Shown one piece after another: positions 25,913 to 33,626 of a stretch of DNA of 64,000 bases. Source of the DNA: Roseibium aggregatum. Its GTDB lineage: Bacteria; Pseudomonadota; Alphaproteobacteria; Rhizobiales; Stappiaceae. A program made the position numbers and the translations under genes. How positions within the stretch are numbered: the stretch's first letter is position 1; each line of letters begins with the position of its first letter. The notes beneath the pieces were generated by a model. The model was not told the origin of the DNA. It did not search any database and was given only the letters and a program-made list of their open reading frames with translations. The stretch spans positions 1-64,000 of the forward strand of contig NZ_JABFCZ010000006.1 in the NCBI RefSeq assembly GCF_014692675.1, read 5' to 3'.

Positions 25913-26917
25913 ATGTCCGCAATCGACCAGAAAAAAGTGACCGCAGACGAGGCGGGCATGCGCCTCGACCGCTGGTTCAAGGTGCACTATCCGGGACTGG
26001 GCTTCGGCCGGCTGCAGAAACTGCTGCGCACCGGACAGGTGCGCCTGGACGGCAAGCGGGCGGAAAGCTCGACCCGGATCGCCAAGGGGCAGATCGTTCG
26101 CGTGCCGCCGCTCGGCGTGGAACTGAGCGCGGACGATACGAAGAACAAGAAGCCGAAATCGACCAAGCTGATTGCCGACGACCGCAAGGCGATCGAGGAC
26201 ATGATGCTGTTCGAGGACGATCACGTGATGGTCCTCAACAAGCCGGCGGGGCTCGCCGTGCAGGGCGGCTCCGGGCTGAAGCGTCATCTGGACGGCATGC
26301 TCGACGCCTTTACCGACCGCAAGGGCAATAAGCCGAAGCTGGTGCACCGGCTCGACCGGGAAACGTCGGGCATCATTCTGGTCGCCAAGACACGGAAAGC
26401 CGCCCAGGAGCTCACAAAAGCGTTCCGTCACCGCAACACCCGCAAGATCTACTGGGCGATGCTGGCCGGCGTTCCCAAGCCCAAGCAGGGCCGTATCTCC
26501 ACCTTCCTCGCACGCTCCGAGGAAAAGGAGCGCATGCGCGTGGCGCGCCAGGGCGAGGACGACGCCCAGCACGCGGTCTCGCTCTATTCGGTGGTGGAAC
26601 AGTCGGCGCAGAAGCTTGCCTGGGTCTCCATGCGCCCCGTGACCGGCCGGACGCACCAGCTCCGCGCCCATGCGGCCCATATCGGCCATCCGATCATCGG
26701 CGACGACAAGTATTTCAACATCGAGAACTGGGAGCTGCCCGGCGGCATCCAGAACCGGCTGCACCTGCTCGCCCGCCGGATCGTCATCCCGCATCCGTCG
26801 GGCCACGGCGTCATCGACGTCTCCGCCCCCCTGCCGCCGCACATGCAGCAGACCTGGAACCTGCTCGGTTTCGACGCCTCCGACTACGACCCGGACATGA
26901 ACGACCCGGAGGAGTGA
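25913..26917 (+). CDS. rluC: RluA-family 23S rRNA pseudouridine synthase (RluC-like)
   Basis: This 334-residue enzyme has an N-terminal S4 RNA-binding domain (about residues 12-75, MRLDRWFKVHYPGLGFGRLQ in part) and the RluA-type catalytic domain with Asp148 in HRLDRETSGI. The GRTHQLRAHAAHIGHPIIGD motif follows. RluC modifies three uridines of 23S rRNA in E. coli; exact targets here are an inference. The coding region is followed 19 bases later by a peculiar hairpin repeat (26937). Confidence 0.92.
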   Translation: MSAIDQKKVTADEAGMRLDRWFKVHYPGLGFGRLQKLLRTGQVRLDGKRAESSTRIAKGQIVRVPPLGVELSADDTKNKKPKSTKLIADDRKAIEDMMLFEDDHVMVLNKPAGLAVQGGSGLKRHLDGMLDAFTDRKGNKPKLVHRLDRETSGIILVAKTRKAAQELTKAFRHRNTRKIYWAMLAGVPKPKQGRISTFLARSEEKERMRVARQGEDDAQHAVSLYSVVEQSAQKLAWVSMRPVTGRTHQLRAHAAHIGHPIIGDDKYFNIENWELPGGIQNRLHLLARRIVIPHPSGHGVIDVSAPLPPHMQQTWNLLGFDASDYDPDMNDPEE

Positions 26918-26936
26918 GGAGTGTTGGGCTTGCCCA

Positions 26937-27002
26937 TGAAACGCCAACGATTTGGCGTTTCAAGCGACGAACGCCCGAAGCCCTAGCGGAGGGCTGGGGC
27001 GG
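26937..27002 (+). repeat. CGAT-loop hairpin element, copy A
   Basis: A perfect 11-bp stem TGAAACGCCAA / TTGGCGTTTCA (26937-26947, 26952-26962) with loop CGAT is joined without spacer to a conserved tail beginning AGCGACGAACGCCC and containing AGCCCT-AGCGG-AGGGCT. The hairpin starts 19 bases after the rluC stop codon, in the same orientation. Copies B (27018) and C (32190, minus) have the same size and loop but a different stem sequence. Confidence 0.85.
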
Positions 27003-27017
27003 TTAGCTCTTAGCCGG

Positions 27018-27080
27018 CCAATCGACAACGATTTGTTGATTGGAATGCCGAATGCCCGGAGCCCTGGCGAAGGGCTGGCA
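27018..27080 (+). repeat. CGAT-loop hairpin element, copy B
   Basis: The 11-bp stem CCAATCGACAA / TTGTTGATTGG (27018-27028, 27033-27043), complete if one G-U pair is allowed, again encloses CGAT. The tail begins AATGCCGAATGCCC and contains AGCCCT-GGCGA-AGGGCT. It follows copy A in tandem after about 15 bases; the bases just before the stem are AGCCGG, as in copy C. Confidence 0.82.
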
Positions 27081-27139
27081 TGTCCCGCGTATCCGGTTCA
27101 GCATCGGGATTGGGGAAAGAGCGTACCACGCCCCCAAAC

Positions 27140-27261
27140 CGTCACCCCGGACTTGATCCGGGGCCTACTCGCCGAGCCGTCTACCGCAGCTCTGGTCGTG
27201 AGCACAACGGCTCTGGAAACGAGTGGATCCCGGGTCTCTCTTCGTTCGCCCGGGACGACAA
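27140..27261. repeat. Extragenic inverted-end repeat, copy 2
   Basis: The segment begins CGTCACCCCGGACTTGATCC and ends GGATCCCGGGTCTC plus CCGGGACGAC, an imperfect inverted pair about 122 bases apart. This is the best-preserved member of the family that also includes 16760-16868 and 49310-49422. It lies in the roughly 400-base gene-free stretch after rluC, together with the two CGAT elements. No coding region is supported there. Confidence 0.65.
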
Positions 27262-27318
27262 TCGTGGGGTGGGCCGGCCTTGTCCGCCACACGTCAATCG
27301 TTTTCAGCCGCCCCGCCT

Positions 27319-27483
27319 CTACTGACCCAGCGCAATGAGCCCGATGGCGATTATGGTCACCATCAGCCCGCCGAGCGCCAGCTTCCAGGCATCCGACCGC
27401 TTCTTCAGCCCCGGCCAGCCGAGCGGCTTGATGATCTGGACCAGGGCCAGGGCAAGCATGAACAGGACGATGATCTTGGTCAA
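27319..27483 (-). CDS. Hidden small membrane protein, 54 residues
   Basis: The minus strand carries an open frame from TTG 27483 to TAG 27319. The product starts MTKIIVLFMLALALVQIIK, continues PLGWPGLKKRSDAWKLALGG and ends in a second hydrophobic stretch, VTIIAIGLIALGQ. A GGAG lies about 7 bases before the TTG, so this start is supported. Two membrane helices joined by a basic loop are predicted. I recall similar short hypothetical proteins in Hyphomicrobiales but could not check. It is 137 bases downstream of the metallo-beta-lactamase gene on the same strand. Confidence 0.65.
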   Translation of the reverse strand: MTKIIVLFMLALALVQIIKPLGWPGLKKRSDAWKLALGGLMVTIIAIGLIALGQ

Positions 27484-27620
27484 CGGAAGCTCCGGGACGA
27501 GGCGATTGGTGTGAGAAGGATCAATAGAGGGGATAGGCCTGGGAGTCGAGGGACGCCCAAGCCCTTATCAGCTCAAGGTGTGATCTTGCAGAGGGCTGTC
27601 TGCCGCCAGATCCTGGCACC

Positions 27621-30453: not shown

Positions 30454-31134
30454 ATGTATCTCGTTATCTTCGATTGCGACGGCACTCTGGTGGACAGCCA
30501 GGAGACCATCCTGCACGGGCTGGAGGTCGGCTTTGCGGCTGCCGGTTTGCCGATGCCGGAGCGGCGCACGGCGCTTTCCATCGTCGGCCTGTCGCTCGAA
30601 CGGGCCTTCCTGACGCTGGTGGGTCCGGAGAACGCCCACCACGTGACCACAATGGCCGATGCCTATCGGGCCTCGAAAGTGGAACGGCGGGGACAGGGGC
30701 TGGACCTCGATCCGCTTTACCCCGGCACCATGGACATGTTCGACCGGCTGGCGGCGCGCGACGATGTGCTTTTGGGTATCGCGACCGGCAAGGCGCGACG
30801 GGGCGTTGATCACATGGTCGAGGTACATGGGCTCCACGGCCGGTTTATCACCATCCAGACGGCGGATACCTCGCCCTCCAAACCCCATCCGGATATGATC
30901 CTGCAGGCGCTTGCCGAGACCGGGGCGGAGGCAGCCAACACGGTCATGATCGGCGACACGTCCTTCGACATGGAAATGGCTGCGGCCGCAAACGTGCGCA
31001 GCATCGGGGTCACCTGGGGTTACCATGACCGGCCGCGCCTGGAACTTGCCGGGGCGGCTCACGTAATCGATCATTTCGACCAGCTCGACGGTGTGCTGGA
31101 GCAACTTTTCGGGTTTGACAGGGAAACGGCGTAA
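30454..31134 (+). CDS. HAD-superfamily phosphatase (Gph-like)
   Basis: The 226-residue protein has the HAD motif I FDCDGTLVDS (nucleophile Asp7, acid Asp9), motif II IATGKARRG, motif III Lys in PSKPHPDMI and motif IV IGDTSFDMEMA. The helical cap (about residues 15-85) is of the C1 type. Phosphoglycolate phosphatases and related nucleotidases belong here; the substrate is not decided. Its stop overlaps the ATP12 start by one base, and this HAD-ATP12 pair is usual in Hyphomicrobiales after crcB-rluC. Confidence 0.9.
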   Translation: MYLVIFDCDGTLVDSQETILHGLEVGFAAAGLPMPERRTALSIVGLSLERAFLTLVGPENAHHVTTMADAYRASKVERRGQGLDLDPLYPGTMDMFDRLAARDDVLLGIATGKARRGVDHMVEVHGLHGRFITIQTADTSPSKPHPDMILQALAETGAEAANTVMIGDTSFDMEMAAAANVRSIGVTWGYHDRPRLELAGAAHVIDHFDQLDGVLEQLFGFDRETA

Positions 31135-31904
31135 TGCGCGACCTTCTTGAAACGCTGGCCGACGACGCGGCCAAGGATCCGGAACAGCGGGCGCGGGAAC
31201 TGTCCCGGCGCCAGTTGCCGAAACGATTCTACGAACGCGCGGAACATGCTGAAACCGAAGGCGGTTTTGCGATTCATCTCGACGGCCGGCCAGTGAAAAC
31301 GCCGGGCAAGGCGGTCCTCGTCCTGCCGAGTGAGGCGCTTGCAAAGGCGGTAGCCGCAGAATGGGCCGCGCAGGAAAAGGAAATCAATCCGGCCAACATG
31401 CCGCTGACACGGATCAGCAATTCCGCGATCGATGCGGTTTCTGTCCGGTTCGCCGAGGTCGCCGACGAGATCGCCCGCTTCTGCGGCACCGATGCGCTCT
31501 GTTATCGGGCGGACGATCCAGAAACACTCGTCCAGCGCCAGACGGAGCTGTGGGATCCGGTGCTTGCTTGGGCAGAAGATCTGCTCGGCAATCGTTTCGT
31601 CCTGATTGGGGGCATCATCCATCAGGACCAGCCAGAGCCGCTCCTGAAGGCGTTCCGGGCCCGGCTCGATGGTCTCAAACCACTTCAGCTCGCGGCCCTT
31701 CACACGGCAACGACCCTGTCCGGGTCCGCCGTCCTGGCGCTCGCCGTACTCGAGGGACGGCTGACGGCCGATGACGCCTGGCAGGCCGCCCACGTGGAAG
31801 AGGACTTCAACATCGAACGCTGGGGCGAGGACGCCGAAGCCGCCGCCATCCGCGCCTACAAGCGCAAGGAATTCGAAGCGGCGGGTCTGATCCTGAAGGG
31901 GTGA
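31134..31904 (+). CDS. ATP12 family F1-ATPase assembly chaperone
   Basis: The 256-residue protein has the ATP12 N-terminal segment RRQLPKRFYERAEHAETEGG and the conserved ALHTATTLSGSAVLALAVLEG. In mitochondria Atp12 holds the ATP synthase alpha subunit before F1 assembly; alphaproteobacteria have the ancestral version. The ATG overlaps the stop of the HAD gene, so expression is coupled. Length is normal. Confidence 0.92.
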   Translation: MRDLLETLADDAAKDPEQRARELSRRQLPKRFYERAEHAETEGGFAIHLDGRPVKTPGKAVLVLPSEALAKAVAAEWAAQEKEINPANMPLTRISNSAIDAVSVRFAEVADEIARFCGTDALCYRADDPETLVQRQTELWDPVLAWAEDLLGNRFVLIGGIIHQDQPEPLLKAFRARLDGLKPLQLAALHTATTLSGSAVLALAVLEGRLTADDAWQAAHVEEDFNIERWGEDAEAAAIRAYKRKEFEAAGLILKG

Positions 31905-31955
31905 GGCGGCGTGATCGGATGATGTTAGCGGCAGGGTCATGCCCCTTGCACCCGT

Positions 31956-32094
31956 CTCCCCCCTTGAGGGGGAGATGTCCGTGTCAACGGACAGAGGGGG
32001 GTATCGGACTTGCAACAAATCGAGGCGGTGGCGTGTGACGCTTCCGCTGTCACCCCCCTCTGTCACCGCCGGCATCTCCCCCTCAAGGGGGGAG
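31956..32094. repeat. Long palindromic intergenic repeat, copy 2
   Basis: Left arm 31956-32002 and right arm 32052-32094 repeat the CTCCCCCCTTGAGGGGGAG ends of copy 1 (18505-18646). The left apical stem is GTCCGT/ACGGAC, different from copy 1's GTCACC/GGTGAC yet still self-complementary; the right apical stem is partly broken (GTCACCGCCGGC). The element starts 51 bases after the ATP12 stop. Confidence 0.85.
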
Positions 32095-32124
32095 AGGGGA
32101 GCAAGTCGAAGAACTGAGACCGGC

Positions 32125-32190
32125 CCCGCCCGGCCCTTCGCTATGGCTTCGGGCGTTCGGCGCTCAAAAAGCAAAATCGTTTGCTTTTTG
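32125..32190 (-). repeat. CGAT-loop hairpin element, copy C
   Basis: On the minus strand an 11-bp stem CAAAAAGCAAA / TTTGCTTTTTG (32190-32180, 32175-32165) with loop CGAT is followed without spacer by the conserved tail AGCGCCGAACGCCCGAAGCC and on to about 32125. The hairpin begins 20 bases after the mgtE stop codon, in the sense orientation of mgtE. Tail identity with copy A (26963-27002) is high. Confidence 0.85.
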
Positions 32191-32210
32191 CCGGCTCCGC
32201 CGGACGCGCC

Positions 32211-33626
32211 TCACCCCAAGTAAAACGTCGTTGCCATCAGGAAGAACACCAGCACGCCGAGCACGTCGTTGGTGGAGGTGATGAAGACGCCGGTGGCCAT
32301 GGCCGGGTCGATGCCGAACTTGTCGAGCACGATGGGGATGATGGCGCCGACCATGGCGGCGAGCGTCGTGACGCAGAGCAGGGAAAACGACGTGGCGAGC
32401 GCCAGATGGACCGGATCGGTTATGGGGACCACCGTCGAGGCGATCATCACCAGCGTAGCGAGAATGCAGCCGGCGACGGCGCCGTTCGCAAGGGCCGCGA
32501 TGAATTCCTTCATCAGCCGGAAGGCGATATCGCCGGACCACAGCGCACCGGTCGCAATCCCCTGAACGGCGACGGCAGACGCCTGCAGGCCGGCGTTGCC
32601 CGCCATGGACATGGTGACCGGAATGAAGGCGGCGAGAATGGCGGCGGTGGAAAGCTGGTGCTCGAAGGAGCCGACCACGCTGGCGGCGACGCTGGAACCG
32701 ATCAGGCCGGCGAGCAGCCAGGGCAGGCGGCCGCGCATGATCTTCAGGACCGTGTCGTCGGCCTTGGCCTCCGACGACACACCACTCATCAGGAGCATGT
32801 CCTCGGTGGCTTCCTCGGAAGCGACACGGGCCATCTGCTTCGGCGTGATCCGGCCGATCAGCTGGCCGTCGGCATTGAGCACCGGGACCGTGTGCATGTC
32901 GCGCTTGCGGGCGAGGCGGAGCACTTCCTCCTGGTCGGTTTCGGCGGAGACGGCCAGGAAGTCCCGGTTCATGATTTCCGCGAGCGTCGCTTCCGGTGGC
33001 GACAGCAGCAGCTTGCCGACTGCAATGGTGCCGGTCAGGCGGCCTTCGTCGTCCAGCACATAGACGGTGTAAATCTTGCGGATCCGCTCGGCCTCGGCCC
33101 GGATCAGGGCGGAGGCATCCTCCACGGTGCAGGTTTCGGGCAGGGCGACGAACTTGCGGGCCATGATGCGGCCGGCGCTGTCGTCGGCGTAGGCTTCGAA
33201 CCCGGCGACGGCTTCCACATCGGGCAGGCGTTCGGCCAGGGTCTCGGCGACTTCGTCAGGGAAGTCGTTGAGCATTTCCGCCGCGTCGTCCGGATCGAGG
33301 CCGGCGAGGATGTCGCGGAACTGCTCCAGGGTGGATTCCTCCATGAGGATGGAGCGGAACTCCGGCCTGAGTTCGGCGATCACCTTGATGGATGGATTGG
33401 ACGGCAGCCATTTGAACAGCTTGCGCGCCTGCTTCAGCCGCAGGCGGACCAGAAGCTGCATGACGTCGATCGGGTCCCAGCGCTTCATCAGATCGACGAG
33501 GGCGATGCGCTCGCCCGCCTTGATCATCTGCCGGATCCTGGCCAGCGTCGCGTCATTGGCTTCCAGCGGTTCCTGTGCCGGCTCGCGATGCCAGACGAGG
33601 GTTTCAGGCTCATCGATGACTGTCAT
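32211..33626 (-). CDS. mgtE: Magnesium transporter MgtE (first copy)
   Basis: The 471-residue protein has a cytoplasmic N-domain of helical repeats (about residues 20-140), two CBS domains (about 145-265, RIMARKFVALPETCTVED and later NRDFLAVSAETDQEE) and five membrane segments with the MgtE signature VTMSMAGNAGLQASAVAVQG lining the pore. MgtE forms a Mg2+-gated dimeric channel. A second MgtE gene is at 60149-61567; the two differ clearly outside the pore. It lies 94 bases upstream-side of the Anbu operon's end, on the same strand. Confidence 0.94.
   Translation of the reverse strand: MTVIDEPETLVWHREPAQEPLEANDATLARIRQMIKAGERIALVDLMKRWDPIDVMQLLVRLRLKQARKLFKWLPSNPSIKVIAELRPEFRSILMEESTLEQFRDILAGLDPDDAAEMLNDFPDEVAETLAERLPDVEAVAGFEAYADDSAGRIMARKFVALPETCTVEDASALIRAEAERIRKIYTVYVLDDEGRLTGTIAVGKLLLSPPEATLAEIMNRDFLAVSAETDQEEVLRLARKRDMHTVPVLNADGQLIGRITPKQMARVASEEATEDMLLMSGVSSEAKADDTVLKIMRGRLPWLLAGLIGSSVAASVVGSFEHQLSTAAILAAFIPVTMSMAGNAGLQASAVAVQGIATGALWSGDIAFRLMKEFIAALANGAVAGCILATLVMIASTVVPITDPVHLALATSFSLLCVTTLAAMVGAIIPIVLDKFGIDPAMATGVFITSTNDVLGVLVFFLMATTFYLG

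Follow-up and report, generated by a model that had tools for sequence, protein, structure and literature searches.

Directly behind a gene of Roseibium aggregatum that we take to be rluC, two tandem hairpins, A and B, have stems that differ in sequence and are nevertheless complementary. To what unit do these hairpins belong, and what keeps their arms paired while the sequence changes? We address this for a window of 64,000 nucleotides (the whole stretch of DNA analysed; contig NZ_JABFCZ010000006.1, positions 1 to 64,000) and for gene ends in related genomes.

The original prediction, made from the window alone, described 11-bp stems closed by a CGAT loop at 26937-26962 (A) and 27018-27043 (B). 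We confirm these hairpins, the complementarity of their stems with a single G-T pair, in B, the conserved tail with its own hairpin in both copies, and the spacing of 19 bases that separates hairpin A from the stop of rluC (26915-26917). The repeat is real, but its unit does not start with this hairpin; its start is the stop codon, and an outer stem, P1, and a further hairpin belong to it as well. In the alignment to our covariance model (R2), the unit starts at the TGA of rluC (26915), is about 80 bases long (roughly 80-90 bp) and reads, from 5' to 3', GRG-TGA-G, P1, hairpin 1, hairpin 2, A, P1', CGAAC and hairpin 3. P1 is formed by the five bases that start with the G after TGA and the five that end at the C of CGAAC; it encloses hairpins 1 and 2, and hairpin 3 stands after P1'.

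The rluC-like pseudouridine synthase gene (25913-26917, forward strand, from the open reading frame list; the name is presumed, after the original prediction) lends its stop TGA to element A as the first triplet. Element A (26915-26994, forward strand, TGAG ... GGGC) scores 84.8 bits with R2 (E=1.3e-17). Its P1 strands, GGAGT (26918-26922) and GCGAC (26964-26968), are opposed in the R2 alignment with the two middle pairs mismatched (G.A and A.G); elsewhere in the family P1 shows covariation. Hairpin 1 (26925-26936, TGGG/CCCA) is seen in the fold and covaries in other copies; hairpin 2 is TGAAACGCCAA-CGAT-TTGGCGTTTCA. Hairpin 3 lies in the tail (26973-26994) and is modelled as GCCC...GGGC from the R2 alignment and the fold, whereas arms of the GCCCT/AGGGC type pair in the unaided fold, as originally described. 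Element B follows in tandem (26995-27075, forward strand, 62.0 bits, E=2.2e-12). It has neither a TGAG start nor an intact P1, and its hairpin 2, CCAATCGACAA-CGAT-TTGTTGATTGG, recurs in the sister genome G018: the unit that begins at the stop of rluC there (L071) has the same stem, fully paired. A third, complete copy lies on the reverse strand (32133-32213, 107 bits, E=1e-22), and its first triplet is the TGA of a transporter gene (32211-33626, reverse strand, from the open reading frame list) that is presumably mgtE-like. This third copy is a training row of R2; A and B are absent from the training rows, and given their E-values they are not due to chance. DNA folds of the isolated units give z = -5.2 (A), -3.1 (B) and -4.6 (third copy). 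The unaided fold of the third copy is exactly the model structure, while those of A and B are without P1 as modelled. Searching with the tail pattern returned the third copy and, on contig C35 of this genome, three more. Positions 31950-32100 hold two palindromes rich in CT/GA (CTCCCCCCTTGAGGGGGAG and relatives), and similar CT-rich ones stand behind rlmE in related genomes.

The pairing is retained across copies. When 11 copies were aligned, with rows and structure chosen by us, 94.3% of 297 cells paired, against 78.7% after shuffling and 30-44% after sliding, and both sides had changed in 15 of the 27 pairs. At a single orthologous site, the stop of lepA in 11 congeneric species with equal-length, gap-free units, 95.0% of 242 cells paired (75.5% shuffled, 26-42% slid), with both sides changed in 13 of 22 pairs. 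The original prediction held that the structure is selected or made by copying and proposed to look for covariation in relatives; the arms indeed vary widely yet pair, and at lepA paired arms are kept in spite of sequence change. It named unpaired arms, or arms identical among copies, as outcomes that would speak against it. Neither describes the family, though some copies do share identical arms, for example L391-L393.

The loop, on the other hand, is not fixed as had been claimed. Among 174 parsed stems CGAT is only a subtype (14), and GGT (43), AGT (33) and TTGC (24) are commoner, beside others. Loop orientation is strongly kept (GGT 43 versus ACC 2; CGAT 14 versus ATCG 0), from which we conclude that template switching seldom inverts the loop, or that inverted loops are removed. 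Hairpin 2 is better paired than P1, for which 60 units give 243 Watson-Crick, 10 G-T, 7 A-C and 40 other pairs. In L211, the first 60 bases past the lepA stop show hairpin 2 reduced to TCAATTGA with P1 and hairpin 1 intact. In L411, L419, L421, L435 and L459 an unusual sequence (e.g. CCCGGCAGGGC...) replaces hairpin 3 after CGAACG or CGAAAG, as if these copies were embedded in another repeat. A presumed likeness of TGAG/CGAAC to the hammerhead or K-turn was set aside on reading.

The placement of the unit is equally distinctive. Units begin at the stops of genes that, judging by their translated ends, we take to be clpS, uup, rluC, mgtE, queF and lepA. TGAG closes an open frame at 16 of 17 places examined; the exception, L142, has no TGAG stop before it and was rejected as a copy. 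The inner units of tandem arrays start without a stop codon. TGAG opens 115 of 140 copies, and for 73 of these 115 the TGA ends an open frame of 100 codons or more, compared with 11 and 33 in the shifted frames; the other 42 close no 100-codon frame. Training R2 on copies with TGAG stop codons favours TGAG starts, not the frame. GRG precedes TGAG in 98 of 117 copies, and the column consensus of these 117 TGAG copies gives GGGGTGAG as the left end. In the window, an open reading frame at 31134-31904 ends in GGGGTGAGG (31898-31905), that is, with GGGGTGAG at the stop and no R2 match behind it; this is either an empty target or a remnant.

Gene ends with and without the element can be compared directly at rlmE, uup and rluC (30 loci each, 90 in total). 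R2 finds the element in 12 (6, 4 and 2, respectively), and all 12 start directly at the gene end as defined by relatives. The gene ends in TGAG at 9 of the 12 loci with an element and at 17 of the 78 without (P=0.0005, three genes together), which suggests that the stop usually comes with the element. At rlmE the six carriers among 30 relatives all have the unit from the identical base after the FKG codons, which strengthens the case for exact placement. Three of these units start with TGAG and end the gene. The other three (L494, L495, L497) start with CGAG, and here the reading frame continues into the unit and adds a C-terminal tail; these cases weaken the idea that the element supplies the stop, which is evidently not required. 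The stop codon itself differs with presence: element-free rlmE genes that end at FKG use TAG in 15 of 15 cases, and element-bearing ones that end there use TGA in 3 of 3. The right flanks at rlmE are too divergent to read the other junction. The idea that P1 is copied from the target, taken from L393, was rejected, as filled rlmE sites share GAAGC and empty sites read TAG plus other sequence.

Sister genomes differ in what they carry at one stop. At rluC, the unit adjoining the stop in G018 carries a B-type stem; G000, the genome of the window, has A at the stop with a 5'-shortened B behind it (by eye). At lepA the situation is reversed: G000 has one unit, and in G018 another unit occupies the stop, with a 5'-shortened piece of the G000 type behind it (by eye). 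Much also looks inherited, as the lepA copies are clustered on a tree of the gene ends. They fall mostly in one clade of 28 with 21 carriers, and 6 changes suffice versus 14.8 when shuffled, on a tree with many forks open. By eye, a unit or its remains, some decayed, is present at 22 of 44 readable lepA sites (14 of 44 by the automatic caller; the unreadable site of G031 was left out).

In the genus, taken to be about Roseibium since the query LepA, from the same-genus genome G033, is 99% identical to that of a named Roseibium record, R2 matches occur in at least 10 of 45 genomes at E<=0.001 and in at least 15 of 45 at E<=0.5. In the order the number is at least 69 of 397 at E<=0.05 (11 candidates scored per genome), and in the class at least 5 of 385 at E<=0.001, the source genome included (12 scored per genome). 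Stricter filters were used in these scans, so the genome counts are floors, and R2 misses other element types. Among 80 named lepA loci, four have a unit at the stop by eye (L268, L294, L316 and L332); of the last three, which were scored with R2, L316 and L332 are recovered and L294 is weak (E 0.013). A search of a plasmid collection with one order-type copy gave partial matches in two records, both from Aminobacter. In 800 kb of G180 there is no R2 match better than E 0.2, although at least 11 copies are listed for that genome as a whole, so copies are sparse there. L147-L149 were rejected as chance matches that do not resemble the element. One lepA record, L284, bears the name Bacillus subtilis SK6B4 and has a LepA with 85% identity to the alphaproteobacterial query; it is probably mislabelled or from a mixed assembly.

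Are the arms maintained in DNA or in RNA? Of 192 pooled rows, 174 could be parsed (18 were dropped, including L137, L138 and L203), giving 96 distinct hairpin 2 stems, 65 of them perfectly paired, with 1021 pairs: 987 Watson-Crick, 13 G-T, 13 A-C and 8 other. Two earlier, poorer parsers gave 68 distinct stems with 11 G-T and 9 A-C, and 84 distinct stems (152 of 208 parsed) with 13 G-T and 10 A-C. For comparison, nine tRNAs from the 800 kb of G180 and the window have 180 Watson-Crick, 11 G-T and 0 A-C pairs of 191 (P=0.003), a contrast to be read knowing that ARAGORN itself favours G-T. The equality of G-T and A-C exceptions favours upkeep as DNA over RNA, and would also be expected from decayed copies of perfect masters. 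Comparisons of nearest neighbours lean in the opposite direction, as under RNA upkeep. In 66 such stem pairs there are 23 uncompensated sites, 12 G-T versus 4 A-C (P=0.077), and 53 compensated ones (30 of transition type, 23 of transversion type). On balance, the arms are likely maintained at the DNA level.

We therefore have to weigh an element that acts in RNA, at the 3' end of the message, where the fold would block exonucleases, end transcription or act on ribosomes as they terminate, and the pairing would be kept by selection at the transcript level. The sense orientation at stop codons, the strong covariation at the orthologous lepA site, the firmly kept loop orientation and the nearest-neighbour lean to G-T are all what it predicts. 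Equal numbers of G-T and A-C in the 96 stems are not, and the scan for terminators and promoters found no terminator-like site at 26700-27500. Rfam likewise has no match to the element: at gathering score there is only a tRNA in the window, and the five element loci give nothing at E<=1. Many orthologous genes also do without the element, which is absent by eye from 22 of 44 readable lepA sites and by R2 from 24 of 30 rlmE, 26 of 30 uup and 28 of 30 rluC loci. We regard an RNA-level element as rather unlikely.

We favour, as reasonably probable, a non-autonomous mobile foldback DNA of about 80-90 bp, of the REP/TIR kind, that targets stop codons. Several known families are comparable. The TIRs with the motif GGGGWSAS are reported beside TIRYT transposase genes (PMC3733652, in the part available). 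The left end GGGGTGAG fits this motif, which is matched exactly in 53 of 117 copies, and the published passages also describe TIRs as moderately abundant, in dimers and clusters, with partly self-complementary tracts (PMC3733652, PMC6006769), as here. Those same passages make no mention of stop-codon placement or freely changing arms. Unlike TIRs, our element was not found beside a Y1 transposase gene. At E<=1e-5, 26 of the 30 genomes chosen lack Y1_Tnp (PF01797), the source genome among them; the other four, including the element carriers G323, G349 and G415, have one. None of the five Y1 places has an element within 1.5 kb on each side (less for L500), the best R2 match there being E 0.34. 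Few Y1 genes are reported in alphaproteobacteria such as Rhizobiales (PMC6006769, passages available), in keeping with our element.

GTAG REPs, which are associated with RAYT, are also small dispersed palindromic repeats, and their ends are reported to give TAG stop codons to flanking open reading frames (PMC3733652, same passages). Our element differs in having its hairpins inside an enclosing stem, in using TGA rather than TAG and in occurring mostly in searched genomes without Y1; no GTAG tag was found within six bases of the left end in any of 117 copies. The CGTC REPs share the host class, the alphaproteobacteria, and are reported to lack a dedicated transposase (PMC3733652, in the part available). 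By eye, the ends of the listed copies do not show the CGTC tag and CCA-like tail of that group: the start is TGAG or a variant of it, and most copies end in GGGCCGG. Just downstream of B, at 27140-27163, CGTC is followed by the palindrome CCCCGGACTTGATCCGGGG, which resembles a REP of the CGTC type.

The element could already have been described from rhizobia as RIME or Br-REP, which we judge quite unlikely. Rhizobial intergenic regions are said to contain dozens of RIMEs, Sm-repeats and other palindromes (PMC2573895, portions available), and Br-REP1 of Bradyrhizobium belongs to a three-palindrome element located in 3' UTRs (PMC5082802, portions available), thus sharing the three stem-loops and the location. 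In contrast, the central stem of Br-REP1 is reported with one consensus in those portions (PMC5082802), whereas the stem here varies freely, and by eye the three copies in the window look different from the printed consensus sequences of Br-REP1 and Br-REP2. In open-licence literature, where RIME is known to us by mentions only and the Br-REPs were compared by eye, we found no printed description of a stop-codon family. Our element would probably be a variant of a known REP/TIR-like kind, unless it is RIME1 or RIME2 itself. It appears to work like REP/TIR elements; we do not claim membership itself. Finally, simple duplication of a few copies of one sequence with coincidental arm differences, for which the nearly identical copies in the order (L391, L392, L393) might be cited, is ruled out, as far as such a thing can be, by the 96 distinct stems with 65 perfectly paired and by control slides that all lower pairing to 26-44%.

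How might such a stop-codon-targeting foldback DNA work? We suggest that its left end, GRG-TGAG, often settles exactly where the last sense codon meets the stop, so that the element's own TGA would become the stop codon and the protein would be unchanged; if the TGA is lost, the protein would read on into the element. As single-stranded DNA it could fold so that P1 surrounds hairpins 1 and 2 and hairpin 3 lies beyond them. A nuclease or transposase would then recognise the fold together with the short motifs TGAG and CGAAC and the loop in its orientation, not the sequence of the arms. Later insertions may hit a stop codon that is already occupied and displace the resident copies downstream, which would build arrays; no transposition event was seen among the loci compared. 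The complementarity of the arms could be kept by foldback recognition, by template-switch copying from arm to arm, or by both. Template switching between hairpin arms, described for RNA genes in the portions available of PMC8794818, lets the arms change together while the loop is kept; the present case is a mobile repeat, for which that mechanism is not shown there. The full combination, a stop-codon-targeting mobile DNA that brings its own stop, is recognised by shape alone and has its arms rewritten together by arm-to-arm copying, is a possibility that we advance tentatively.

If our explanation is correct, a repeat would multiply at gene ends at little cost, replacing the stop codon without changing the protein. 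The family would also offer a natural series of near-perfect palindromes whose arms vary, a setting for testing template-switch copying against selection on RNA. Loss of the TGA, as in three rlmE genes, lengthens the protein, and the element may thus be a source of new C-terminal tails.
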